The notes beneath the pieces were generated by a model, which saw nothing but the letters and a program-made list of their open reading frames with translations, did not search any database and was not told the DNA's origin. Position numbers and translations under genes: made by a program. A DNA stretch of 64,000 nucleotides from contig NZ_CP010978.1 of NCBI RefSeq assembly GCF_000271665.2, forward strand, positions 838,501 through 902,500, in the 5' to 3' direction. This DNA comes from Pelosinus fermentans JBW45 (GTDB taxonomy: Bacteria > Bacillota > Negativicutes > DSM-13327). Shown in pieces: positions 4,805-61,303 of the stretch (position 1 is the stretch's first letter; each line of letters begins with the position of its first letter).

Positions 4805-5866
4805 ATGAAAACCATTTTTGTTACAGGTGGCGCCGGTTTTATAGGTAGTAATTTCATTCATGAGGTCTTACAGAAGCAGGCTATAAAAATCATTAACTTA
4901 GATAAGCTAACCTATGCGGGAAATTTGGATTCATTACGGGACGTTGAGAATGACCCGTACTATACCTTTATTCATGGTGATATTTGCGATAAAAAGTTAG
5001 TTGAAGAAATATTGGCGGATTATCAGCCTATTGCTATTGTGCATTTTGCAGCAGAGTCCCATGTTGATCGTTCGATTGACGGTCCGTCTGAGTTTATTCA
5101 TACAAATATTAATGGTACTTTTTCTCTCCTGGAGGCAGCTAGAGCATATTGGTGCGATTTGGCCAGAGAAAGGAAATTGCATTTCCGTTTTTTACACGTT
5201 TCAACAGATGAGGTATATGGTACATTGGGCGAAACTGGATATTTTACCGAAGAAACACCTTATGCCCCTAATTCGCCGTATTCGGCATCTAAGGCTTCTT
5301 CAGATCATCTTGTAAGAGCTTATCACCATACTTATGGATTGCCGGTATTGATGACTAATTGTTCGAATAATTATGGACCGTTTCAATTTCCAGAGAAGTT
5401 GATTCCTTTAATGATATTAAATGCTTTGGAGGGTAAGCCTTTACCAGTGTATGGCACGGGACAGAATGTGCGGGACTGGTTGTATGTAAAAGATCATTGT
5501 CGGGCAATTTTAACTGTGCTAGAAAAAGGGATACCCGGTGAAAGATACAATATTGGTGGACATAATGAAAAAGCCAATTTAAGTATTGTACATACTTTAT
5601 GTGATATTCTTGATGATAAAAGTCCTCGTGCAGATGGAAAGTCATATCGTGAGCAAATTACATTTGTTACAGATCGGCTGGGGCATGATTTGCGGTATGC
5701 CATTGATGCATCTAAGATTCAGAAAGAACTGGGATGGGTACCGGTAGAAACCTTTGAAACAGGGATTATGAAAACGATAGAGTGGTATTTGGGAAACCGG
5801 GAATGGTGTCAGAGGGTGACTGATGGCAGTAATCGAATAAAACAGCTAACCAGTGAAAAATTATAA
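4805..5866 (+). CDS. rfbB: dTDP-glucose 4,6-dehydratase
   Basis: Extended SDR enzyme converting dTDP-glucose to dTDP-4-keto-6-deoxyglucose. It has the NAD-binding [10 protein letters not shown] at residues 8-17, [12 protein letters not shown] near 80, STDEVYGT with the catalytic Asp-Glu pair near 130, and '[10 protein letters not shown]' giving the Tyr-x3-Lys near 160. '[17 protein letters not shown]' and 'YVKDHCRAI' are typical RmlB motifs. Length (353 aa) is normal. GAGAGGG precedes the ATG. rfbA follows 12 nt downstream, but no rfbC or rfbD is in the window, so the product need not go to rhamnose. The FdtA/FdtB-like pair at 44.5-46 kb uses this same intermediate. Confidence 0.95.
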
Positions 5867-11917: not shown

Positions 11918-11960
11918 ACACACCCCGACACTACGTGCCACCCCTCTCAAGAGGGGAATT
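11918..11960. repeat. Family A dispersed repeat, single arm, type b
   Basis: ACACACCCCG is followed by a small stem (ACACTACGTGCC) and the palindrome CCCCTCTCAAGAGGGG, then AATT. It is a solitary copy placed directly after galU. The b-type arm sequence matches the right-hand arms of the paired units at 23.7-25.3 kb when these are read on the other strand. Confidence 0.85.
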
Positions 11961-17169: not shown

Positions 17170-17345
17170 TGTCATTGCGAGCACAGCGAAGCAATCCCTA
17201 TCTCAAATCCTCCTTTGTGTCCTTCGTGTACGCGTAAGCGTCTTTGCGTCTTCGTGTTTCAACCGTTTTTCTTTACCTCTCTGTCATTTTGCGAGCGCAT
17301 AGCGAAGCAATCCTCTGCCTCTGTGCCTCGTTTCTTTCTTCATCC
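17170..17345. repeat. Cluster of dispersed repeats (families B and C) in a gene-free gap
   Basis: Two family C elements (GTCATTGCGAGCACAGCGAA... at 17173-17199, and a variant from 17283 beginning gtcattttgcgagcgca) flank a family B arm (TTCGTGTACGCGTAAGCG ... CTTCGTGTTTCAAC, 17220-17262). The 365-bp gap between encapsulin and the ABC-F gene therefore holds a terminator and repeats only. The open frames here are repeat translations. Confidence 0.8.
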
Positions 17346-19329: not shown

Positions 19330-19450
19330 GACAAAAAACGTGAAACGCGAAGGCGCGAAGCGCTAGCGCGGACACGAAGAACACGAAGGGACATTATTAA
19401 ACTTATCTTCGTGTTCTTTGCACGTCTTCGCGCCTTCGTGTTTCAACAAT
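19330..19450. repeat. Family B palindromic repeat, long copy
   Basis: The left arm (GTGAAACGCGAAGGCGCG ... ACACGAAGAACACGAAGG) and right arm (CTTCGTGTTCTTTGCACG ... CGCCTTCGTGTTTCAAC) are complementary over much of their length. Together they form a hairpin of about 110 nt between the ABC-F and sigma-factor genes. Confidence 0.85.
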
Positions 19451-19462
19451 TTTTTTATTTTA

Positions 19463-19505
19463 AAGCCGACTTGTGTGTCAAGTGACATGCAGGTCGGCTT
19501 TTGTT
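19463..19505 (+). terminator. Hairpin terminator upstream of the sigma cassette
   Basis: AAGCCGACTTG pairs imperfectly with CAGGTCGGCTT around a short interior, followed by TTGTTTTG. It separates the repeat region from the sigma-factor gene. Confidence 0.65.
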
Positions 19506-20745: not shown

Positions 20746-20788
20746 AATTCCCCTCTAGAGAGGGGTGCCCCAAGGGCGGGGTGTGTTG
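20746..20788. repeat. Family A dispersed repeat, single arm, type a (reverse)
   Basis: AATTCCCCTCTAGAGAGGGG is followed by TGCCCCAAGGGCGGGGTGTG. Read on the minus strand it is a type a arm, like those at 23719 and 24302. Confidence 0.85.
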
Positions 20789-21006: not shown

Positions 21007-21017
21007 GTTTATAAAAA

Positions 21018-21108
21018 AATAACGAAACGCGAAGACGCGAAGGTACGAAGGTGCACGAAGAATAAGCTGGCATACCCTTCGTTGCCTTTGCATCTTCGCG
21101 TTTCAAAC
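21018..21108. repeat. Family B palindromic repeat reaching into the TSCPD gene's stop codon
   Basis: ACGAAACGCGAAGACGCGAA and TGCATCTTCGCGTTTCAAAC form the outer arms, with CGAAGG/CCTTCG inside. The TCA at 21103-21105 (the minus-strand stop TGA of the TSCPD gene) lies within the conserved 'TTTCAA' end. Confidence 0.8.
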
Positions 21109-21366
21109 TTTTTTATCTTGCTTTTCCTTCATCTGTTCCAATATTGCATTTACCAATTGATCCGTACAGGAAGTCGTCTTTTGTCCGCAGGTAATGCCTT
21201 TTAGTTTTTTGATAACCTCTTCAGCGGGCATGCCCTCCACTAATACACTTATAGCCTGCAGATTCCCAGGACATCCGCCATTAAATCGTACATTGGTTAC
21301 AATTCCATCTTTCAACTCAAAATCTATTTCTTTGGCACATACGCCAGCTGTATTATAAGTAGTCAT
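21103..21366 (-). CDS. TSCPD-domain protein (TIGR03905 family)
   Basis: 87 aa. FELKDGIVTNVRFNGGCPGN near residue 16, 'ISVLVEGMPAEEVIKKLKGI' near 40 and 'CGQKTTSCTDQLVNAI' near 60 are the family's hallmarks, including the TSCPD-like 'TSCTDQ' and paired Cys. The stand-alone domain resembles the C-terminal part of vitamin B12-dependent ribonucleotide reductases. Its function is unclear; zinc or metal binding by the Cys residues is plausible. AAAGGGG lies upstream of the ATG on the minus strand. Confidence 0.85.
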   Translation of the reverse strand: MTTYNTAGVCAKEIDFELKDGIVTNVRFNGGCPGNLQAISVLVEGMPAEEVIKKLKGITCGQKTTSCTDQLVNAILEQMKEKQDKKV

Positions 21367-23718: not shown

Positions 23719-23880
23719 CAAACACACCCCGCCTGCGGGCACCCCTCTCTAGAGGGGAATAGTTTTTAATCACCTTCTTAAAGAATGGATCAGTGAAACA
23801 CTAAATGCACACAATCCATCAGAAATGGCTTTTTAAAATTCCCCTCTAGAGAGGGGTGGCGCGCAGCGACGGGGTGTGTT
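23719..23880. repeat. REPIN-like family A unit 1 (inverted pair)
   Basis: The left arm, type a (CACACCCCGCCTGCGGGCAC then CCCCTCTCTAGAGGGG), spans 23719-23760. The right arm, type b in reverse (CCCCTCTAGAGAGGGG then TGGCGCGCAGCGACGGGG), spans 23837-23880. The 76-nt centre is not shared with the other units. It immediately precedes the DUF559 gene. Confidence 0.9.
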
Positions 23881-23922
23881 CGTCGTTTCTTGCAAGTAGA
23901 GAGTATAAGGGGATGAAATGTT

Positions 23923-24330
23923 TTGTCTAAAGAAAAGATCATTTCATACAATCCCAAACTAAAGGAGCTAGCAAAACAGCTTCGTCAAAACAGTACTTTA
24001 TCCGAAGTATTGCTTTGGCAACAACTAAAGGGTAAACAAATGATGAATTATAGCTTTCACCGCCAAAAACCGATTGAAAATTATATTGTTGACTTCTTTT
24101 GCCATGAATTAATGCTAGCAATTGAGATAGATGGAGTTACCCATAATGAGAAGATTGTCTATGATATACAACGACAAAAAAGGCTGGAGTCATTAGGAAT
24201 TCATTTCTTAAGGTTTCATGATAGTGATGTAAAGAAAAATTTAGCAGGTGTAGTAGAAGCTATTAAGATGTGGATTTGTAAGTATGAGGGAGAAAACGGG
24301 CTCACCCCGCCTGCGGGCACCCCTCTCTAG
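23923..24330 (+). CDS. DUF559 domain protein (Vsr/PD-(D/E)xK nuclease-like)
   Basis: 135 aa from TTG 23923, with AAGGGG 10 nt upstream. The 'TLSEVLLWQQLKGKQ' block near residue 24 carries the conserved Glu-x-x-Leu-Trp. FHRQKPIENYIVDFFCHE (near 44-61) holds the Asp, 'LAIEIDGVTH' (near 64-73) the Glu-x-Asp-Gly, and 'RFHDSDV' lies near 98. This is the very-short-patch-repair-like restriction-endonuclease fold. The last residues (LTPPAGTPL) and the stop codon are encoded by the left arm of the second REPIN-like unit. Repeat units lie on both sides. A DNA-cleaving role tied to these repeats is an inference. Confidence 0.85.
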   Translation: MSKEKIISYNPKLKELAKQLRQNSTLSEVLLWQQLKGKQMMNYSFHRQKPIENYIVDFFCHELMLAIEIDGVTHNEKIVYDIQRQKRLESLGIHFLRFHDSDVKKNLAGVVEAIKMWICKYEGENGLTPPAGTPL

Positions 24331-24459
24331 AGGGGAATAGTTTAAAATCCCTACCAGAGAAAACCAGCCTATCGTAGCAGCGTATGCGTTCATCTTGAGT
24401 CCGGCTCCCAAAATCCATTCCCCTTTAGAGAGGGGTGGCGCGCAGCGACGGGGTGTGTT
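24302..24459. repeat. REPIN-like family A unit 2 (inverted pair)
   Basis: The type a arm at 24302-24339 and the reverse type b arm at 24417-24459 are separated by 77 nt of unrelated sequence. The left arm overlaps the DUF559 3' end and contains its stop codon (24328-24330). Confidence 0.9.
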
Positions 24460-24496
24460 CGTCGTACCCATGATTGCATAAGGAGGCTGCATTGGT

Positions 24497-25159
24497 GTGA
24501 TTAGTAGCTATTGGAAGACCTTTTTGAATATCCTCTATCCGCCAAAGTGCCCTTATTGTAAAACCTTGGTGCAGGAGCATGGGGCATGGTGCTCTTCCTG
24601 TTTATCCGCCATTTTCGCGGTTCGAGAAATTAATGTTCTGGAGCATCGGCTAAAAGCCTTAGACTCCTGTCGCGTGGTATGCGAATACACAGGAGGTCTA
24701 AAGCGGATTATTCACGATATGAAATTTCGTCAACAAAAGAAATATGGGATTCATCTAAATTGGCTATTAACCAACAGTAAACTAGCACATACATTTTCAA
24801 CGATTGAGTATGTAATCCCTGTACCATTACACACTGCTCGTCTGCGAGAGAGGGGCTACAATCAGACAGAGGTTATCTTTAAGAAATGGTCAAAGAAAGA
24901 AAACCTACAGTGGATGCCAGAACTATTAGTACGGGGCAAGCATACCATTCCCCAATGGGAGCTAACTCTGGCAAAGCGAAAAGAAAATTTAAAGGGCGCG
25001 TTTGTCATTACGCGCCCTTTATTGGTGAAGGATAAACATATATTGTTGGTAGATGATATTATAACTACTGGCATTACCCTAGATGAGTGTGCCAAGGTCT
25101 TAAAAGAATCAGGGGCAGCATCCGTCCATGGACTTGCCATAGCCAGCGGGGCGAGATAA
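24497..25159 (+). CDS. comF: ComF-family phosphoribosyltransferase-like protein
   Basis: 220 aa. It begins with a zinc-finger-like region, 'YPPKCPYCKTLVQEHGAWCSSC', giving two CxxC pairs (near residues 14 and 32). Next come 'YTGGLKRIIHDMKFRQQKKYG' near 65 and 'PVPLHTARLRERGYNQTE' near 103. Finally there is the PRPP-binding LLVDDIITTGITLDEC near 185. These are the standard ComF/GntX features. The role is in DNA uptake for natural competence where studied. GTG 24497 follows AAGGAGG. The gene lies between two REPIN-like units and has no comFA neighbour here. Confidence 0.9.
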   Translation: MISSYWKTFLNILYPPKCPYCKTLVQEHGAWCSSCLSAIFAVREINVLEHRLKALDSCRVVCEYTGGLKRIIHDMKFRQQKKYGIHLNWLLTNSKLAHTFSTIEYVIPVPLHTARLRERGYNQTEVIFKKWSKKENLQWMPELLVRGKHTIPQWELTLAKRKENLKGAFVITRPLLVKDKHILLVDDIITTGITLDECAKVLKESGAASVHGLAIASGAR

Positions 25160-25171
25160 GAGGGAACGACG

Positions 25172-25341
25172 ACACACCCCACCTGCGGGCACCCCTCTCG
25201 AGAGGGGAATTAAGCAATCATCTCAAGAAGGGGGAGCAAAGCAAAGGATGGCCCAACTTCGTTTGAGAGTATTTTTCTTAATTAAGAGGGGAATAAAAAA
25301 TCCCCTCTAGAGAGGGGTGGCGCGAAGCGACGGGGTGTGTT
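25172..25341. repeat. REPIN-like family A unit 3 (inverted pair)
   Basis: The type a arm at 25172-25211 (CACCTGCGGGC variant, CCCCTCTCGAGAGGGG palindrome) pairs with the reverse type b arm at 25300-25341, across an 88-nt centre. The unit fills the gap between comF and the convergent HD-GYP gene. Confidence 0.9.
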
Positions 25342-58776: not shown

Positions 58777-59010
58777 TTAAGAACCTATTGCTTAGGTCTG
58801 TGGTTGAAAGTCGAGGCCAGTCGCAGGCGAAACGATCCACATAAGGAGTCCAAAGTGGCTCTGAGCATGGTGCGGTTTAGGGGTAAGTCCTGCCGAGTTA
58901 TTAGCTACGTCAGCTAGATTCGAGAGTGGCAGTAGTGAGGAGATTGATTTCTTATTAGCGAACCTTCCAGCAGGCGGGTGTGGGGGCAAAGACCAGGTCA
59001 GCTAAGCAGT
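58777..59010 (+). ncRNA. Large structured non-coding RNA candidate (class not assigned)
   Basis: This gene-free 338-bp gap has high GC for the region and many potential pairings. The closing stem is TGCTTAG (about 58789) with CTAAGCA (about 59003). TGTGG (58799-58803) pairs with CCACA (58837-58841). CTGCC near 58890 pairs with GGCAG near 58928, enclosing TTAGCT/AGCTAG, and a GAGGAGATTGATTTCTT hairpin follows. A strong promoter lies right upstream, and a zinc-ribbon gene starts 40 nt after the closing stem. No riboswitch class I can name fits. The raiA-type structured RNAs of Firmicutes are one possibility on size and abundance grounds, but I could not confirm this. Confidence 0.6.
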
Positions 59011-61260: not shown

Positions 61261-61303
61261 AACACACCCCGTCACTGCGTGCCACCCCTCTCAAGAGGGG
61301 ATT
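61261..61303. repeat. Family A dispersed repeat, single arm, type b
   Basis: AACACACCCCGTCACTGCGT then GCCACCCCTCTCAAGAGGGG and ATTTTTT. It is nearly identical in the arm stem to the copy at 11918. Confidence 0.88.

Follow-up and report, generated by a model that had tools for sequence, protein, structure and literature searches.

The window analysed in this work, a 64,000-nucleotide stretch of DNA from Pelosinus fermentans JBW45, contains three palindromic repeat units within 1.6 kb, all of which were confirmed by direct reading of the sequence at positions 23722-23880 (unit 1), 24302-24459 (unit 2) and 25172-25341 (unit 3), with no strand assigned. Each unit is comprised of a left arm of type a, a centre, and an inverted right arm of type b; in unit 1, the two arms occupy positions 23722-23760 and ~23837-23880. 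Units 1 and 2 enclose a plus-strand gene (23923-24330) that starts from TTG and encodes a 135-amino acid protein of the DUF559 family, a standalone EDxHD/Vsr-like nuclease (PF04480; E-value 2.3e-31, 108 bits). Its reading frame extends into unit 2, with the stop codon falling inside the palindrome of the left arm. The gene for a ComF-like phosphoribosyltransferase sits between units 2 and 3. Single arms are present further away, including two with a first hairpin of type b on the plus strand, at 11918-11960 (GACACTACGTGCC) and 61261-61303 (GTCACTGCGTGCC), and one with a first hairpin of type a on the minus strand, at 20746-20787. The three units, the DUF559 gene and the single arms had all been proposed in an earlier note on this DNA, and each of these proposals holds.

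The left arm is built, in this order, of a ACACACCCCG tag, a small hairpin (GCC..GGC), an A, CCCCTCTCTAGAGGGG and AAT, and the inverted right arm has a different small hairpin of its own (GTCGC TGC GCGCC). The palindrome of the arms has the form CCCCTCT..AGAGGGG; with up to three mismatches allowed, it gives 18 strand-matches, i.e. nine places, in the window, compared with 0.07 expected from shuffled sequences. The earlier note had ascribed this palindrome to every arm, and it does occur in all six arms of the units, although two of them carry variant forms (CCCCTTTAGAGAGGGG at 24420 and CCCCTCTCGAGAGGGG at 25192). The small hairpin varies in sequence and keeps its stem, with a mean of 3.2 pairs vs 2.3 in shuffled sequences (the maximum of 2000 shuffles being 2.9). 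The tags point outward in the window units, and each unit, being an inverted pair of palindromes as in REPINs, folds into a single long hairpin.

In the PDB, the structural model of the window DUF559 protein (pLDDT 90) matches NGO0050 (Z 15.4; 3HRL), the homing endonuclease I-Bth0305I in its catalytic domain (Z 11.6; 3R3P) and Vsr (Z 9.3; 1CW0), with weaker matches to Holliday-junction resolvases and TnsA; I-Bth0305I was also matched by sequence (E-value 5e-5). The residues E28, D57, E68, D70, H74 and D81 are invariant among 25 sequences, and these acidic and histidine residues probably occupy the positions of the EDxHD active-site motif. On the basis of the model, we predict a DNA-cleaving nuclease with the Vsr fold, most similar to NGO0050 and I-Bth0305I. 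The PADLOC search yielded weak matches only and no defence assignment. DUF559 has already been placed in the EDxHD homing family by one paper (PMC9403480), and DUF559 segments have been reported as recombination hotspots in Legionella (PMC12308824).

The distribution of arms was compared among ten genomes of the window's order, of which G000 (5.38 Mb) is the genome of the window itself. It has one DUF559 match, the standalone gene, and ~19 places with the palindrome. A stricter arm pattern retains 16 arms, 13 of which lie within 92 kb of the sole DUF559 gene (binomial probability 4e-17); in G003, 12 of the 14 arms lie within 90 kb of the DUF559 gene (4e-16). The three genomes that have a standalone DUF559 gene (G000, G003 and G004) contain 16, 14 and 11 pattern arms, respectively, whereas the other seven contain 0-1; these counts are uncorrected for phylogeny. 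Thus, with respect to the question raised in the earlier note of whether the units are common in relatives without the gene, they proved rare or absent in such genomes of this order. One slightly different unit, missed by the arm pattern, is kept at the recD2-comF site, the location of DUF559, in G008, which lacks the gene.

Alleles without the element, which the earlier note had suggested looking for, were found at some homologous sites. Unit 3 occurs in G000, G003 and G004, whereas G006, G007 and G009 have the corresponding site without it, a distribution that fits gain. The single arm at 11918 is shared by G000 and G003; G005 has a decayed copy, and in G004 and G009 the site lacks the arm. 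The recD2 and comF genes directly adjoin in G005 and G009; this short junction could be a deletion, and because G006 and G007 carry other DNA there, both insertion and deletion are possible. In these two genomes the recD2-comF site is filled by a repeat-like stretch, GAACCACAAAGACAC..GTGTCTTTGTGGTTC. The centres of units at homologous sites differ between strains, with other lengths in G003 and G004, some of only 12-20 nt. The arms at the Pelosinus DUF559 locus L104 are similar to those of the window.

In Escherichia coli, the DUF559 member is YcjD, and an arm, CCCCTCACCCTAACCCTCTCCCCAGAGGGG, lies on the fabI side of ycjD; it may correspond to the Box C element. Upstream of ycjD, on the sapF side, strain MG1655 carries a perfect hairpin of another kind, CACCTCATTCTGACAA..TTGTCAGAATGAGGTG (positions 5755-5810 of locus L297). 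The 41-nt E. coli arm was found in 5376 of 5426 genomes at a median of 19 and a maximum of 33 places, and ycjD is present in 3364 of the 5426. Among 60 genomes sampled at even steps, 37 with ycjD have 15-30 arm places compared with 2-23 (median 10) in the 23 without it, a difference (p 2e-9) that is confounded by phylogeny. The O157:H7 strain lacks ycjD, yet has about 14-15 arm places, as if ycjD had been lost after the arms spread.

A 186-bp unit between fepB and entC (locus L305) is present in MG1655 and in approximately half of the E. coli genomes. Alignment of two unit-free genomes revealed a clean join with a possible 3-bp TAA duplication, observed at this site only. The tags of this unit point inward, as they do at DUF559 genes, with a short spacer in place of the gene. 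Both the fepB-entC unit and the window units have terminal inverted repeats and no coding capacity. The E. coli unit lies between divergent genes in the enterobactin control region, and may change the regulation of iron uptake between strains.

The pairing of arms with DUF559 is general, reaching many phyla far beyond the window. We collected 80 DUF559 loci from many phyla by one scan of named genomes with the DUF559 alignment. Since arm sequences vary from one genome to the next, a strict arm pattern overlooks many loci, and a motif-free test for inverted repeats was used instead, in which the 350-nt flank is aligned to the reverse complement of the opposite flank with a threshold score of at least 14. 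This threshold was reached at 45 of 79 DUF559 loci vs 11 of 2535 control intervals from the same loci (Mann-Whitney, 1.8e-30), at 15 of 29 loci in 25 genomes (a set partly overlapping the 79 loci), at 18 of 25 loci in the cyanobacterial phylum, and, within the window's phylum, at none of the 25 loci of low-scoring PF04480 relatives. By the motif test, arm-like hairpins occur within 400 nt of 49 of the 80 DUF559 loci vs 22 of 2107 control windows, and arms on any side were found at 22 of 28 loci in Alphaproteobacteria, 16 of 25 in the cyanobacterial phylum, and one of 25 among the low-scoring relatives. The earlier note had considered that DUF559 genes might usually sit away from such repeats; genes of this subfamily normally adjoin them. 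In each automatic arm test, about four in ten of the 80 loci do not pass, and at some of these the arms are visibly different. Reading of the flanks revealed a recurrent layout of hairpin, tag, DUF559, tag, hairpin, with the tag pointing to the gene in 62 of the 78 nearest arms (p 1.5e-7; some loci are counted twice). Across the loci read, the tag is ACACACCCCG or CACCC-like, and is neither GTAG nor CGTC. A genome may have up to eight DUF559 copies, some of them broken. At one locus (L057, positions 360-870), several arm copies in both orientations, direct and inverted, lie just downstream of the DUF559 gene, with C-terminal DUF559 fragments between them.

Two types of arms were distinguished, the G type (tag and small hairpin) and the T type (tag and few nucleotides). 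Their distribution requires six changes on the DUF559 tree, compared with 14.6 expected from shuffles, none of the 500 shuffles being as low. One supported clade, comprising 18 DUF559 sequences from many phyla, contains 13 rows of the G type and none of the T type; the tree itself is based on few columns and has many weak forks. The arm type nevertheless clearly follows the nuclease. In the cyanobacterial phylum (194 genomes surveyed), three or more arms of one type were found in 15 of the 93 genomes with a high-scoring DUF559 vs one of the 101 others (p 8e-5, uncorrected for phylogeny). The one case among the latter is G334, where 16 arms were found and PF04480 gave no match, possibly due to loss of the gene or the existence of another partner.

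We propose, with a probability of about 0.66, that the DUF559 nuclease and the palindromic arms constitute one mobile genetic system, which would work like RAYT/REPIN but without a RAYT. The autonomous element would be comprised of a standalone EDxHD (Vsr-fold) nuclease gene and two arms in opposite orientation, each with a CACCC-type tag beside a C-rich hairpin, the tag usually being towards the gene. Its non-autonomous derivatives would be the dispersed units and the single arms. The nuclease may recognise the tag together with an extruded hairpin or cruciform and nick or cut at this arm, and the ensuing repair would copy the armed DNA into new intergenic sites, preferably nearby. The data establish the association of arms with the gene, their orientation, the specificity for one subfamily, and the correspondence between arm types and the nuclease tree, as well as the local clustering in the window's genus, the link to copy number, and the presence/absence alleles; that DUF559 itself cuts and moves the arms is what we infer from them. 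Persistence of arms without the gene, in O157:H7 and in G334, speaks against the proposal. Whereas the E. coli unit and the arms at DUF559 genes have their tags inward, those of the window units point outward, so that the mobile unit could be delimited in more than one way.

In the main rival to a mobile DUF559 system, the arms would be cleavage or regulatory sites of DUF559, acting as a nuclease of the homing or repair type; it would keep or use them rather than transpose them, while the arms multiply by host recombination, gene conversion or slippage. The kinship to I-Bth0305I and Vsr, the abundance of single arms, and the report of Caulobacter VsrA, a DUF559 protein, as a putative mismatch-repair nuclease (PMC12907096) are all consistent with such a role; nevertheless, we consider it unlikely, as the copy number of arms depends on the presence of the gene and the arms cluster round it in the window's genus. 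I-Bth0305I shares the fold and a sequence relationship with DUF559, and mobility targeted to a site would be the expected function of both, whereas DUF559 is a short standalone protein that lacks the long DNA-binding region and is flanked by palindromic repeats instead of residing in an intron. The presence/absence alleles at recD2-comF and at ycjD might be the occupied and empty alleles of a homing gene, with insertion and deletion both possible there. Vsr, the very-short-patch repair endonuclease, has the same fold, and differs in that it is the DUF559 gene that has repeats at it.

The arms could also be MITE-like elements moved by another transposase, with DUF559 as a passenger caught between them. 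The arms are short and non-coding and have inverted ends, as do MITEs and further dispersed palindromes known from enterobacteria, and both the intergenic positions and the possible TAA duplication at fepB-entC would suit a MITE; but the partner gene here is a nuclease, the gene between the arms is DUF559 in unrelated phyla at the loci read, the arm type tracks the DUF559 tree where a passenger would vary, and arms also occur singly, which leaves such an origin quite improbable. REPINs are formed by GTAG-tagged REPs associated with Y1 tyrosine transposases (PMC3116915, PMC3733652), and share with the present elements the tagged palindromes, the inverted pairs with a spacer that form a hairpin, the dispersed intergenic copies, and the one dedicated nuclease-type gene flanked by repeats. 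The movement of the units by a RAYT, with DUF559 being incidental, could be invoked for G000 and G004, which have a Y1 gene of RAYT size (4476153-4476509 in G000). This Y1 gene is, however, millions of bases from the arm cluster; arms are lacking in G001 despite a Y1 gene of this type, the 14 arms of G003 occur in a genome without one, and the tag is not GTAG. Judged by their distribution across genomes, the Y1 genes do not track the arms, and a RAYT was rejected as the mover, its role being very improbable. The tag is CACCC-like and the partner is an EDxHD/Vsr-fold nuclease in place of an HUH transposase, so the window elements are not REPINs by definition. The earlier note had called them REPIN-like and suggested that DUF559 might mobilise or process them in place of a RAYT. 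This suggestion withstood both refuting conditions set in that note and is partly supported: the replacement of a RAYT is favoured by the association, the gene dependence and the Y1 distribution, the strict REPIN identity is not retained, and DUF559 may mobilise the elements by the mechanism proposed above. CGTC-tagged REPs, reported to lack a transposase (PMC3733652), are likewise tagged hairpin repeats without a RAYT, and differ in tag and stem; DUF559 was rejected as their partner in Alphaproteobacteria, where the flanks of the DUF559 genes read carry CACCC-type arms with no CGTC-type repeat evident by eye. Finally, some arms follow convergent genes and their hairpins are GC-rich, as would suit ordinary terminators, or palindromes that lie beside a small gene by chance. 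The excess of the palindrome in the window over shuffled sequences, the occurrence of one E. coli copy between the divergent fepB and entC, and the nature of the arms, which are sequence-specific, tagged, dispersed, and present or absent between strains, refute this as a sole explanation and reduce its probability almost to nothing.

To our knowledge, the spreading of such hairpin repeats has so far been credited only to a different enzyme family, and we know of no assigned function for DUF559 (YcjD in E. coli) and of no mover for many hairpin repeats. In the openly readable literature we found no report linking DUF559 to repeats, and searches with the arm sequence strings returned nothing relevant. 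The present data tie DUF559 to hairpin repeats across many phyla, and ycjD of E. coli K-12 provides a laboratory model for a direct test. If the proposed system is real, the maintenance of dispersed repeats in bacterial chromosomes would be a further role of a nuclease fold familiar from homing and mismatch repair. We give even odds to the broader view that these are bacteria-wide mobile palindromic elements driven by a homing-type EDxHD nuclease rather than a transposase, with clade-specific arm recognition, such that one enzyme family would be behind a substantial fraction of the interspersed CACCC..CCCTC repeats, among them a common one of E. coli.

The Rfam search of the window gave no match on the arms, its sole match being a raiA RNA at 58787-59010 (186.6 bits). 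The window also contains further dispersed repeats, at ~17205-17290, 19330-19465 and 21014-21115, which have many scattered matches in the genomes of the genus.
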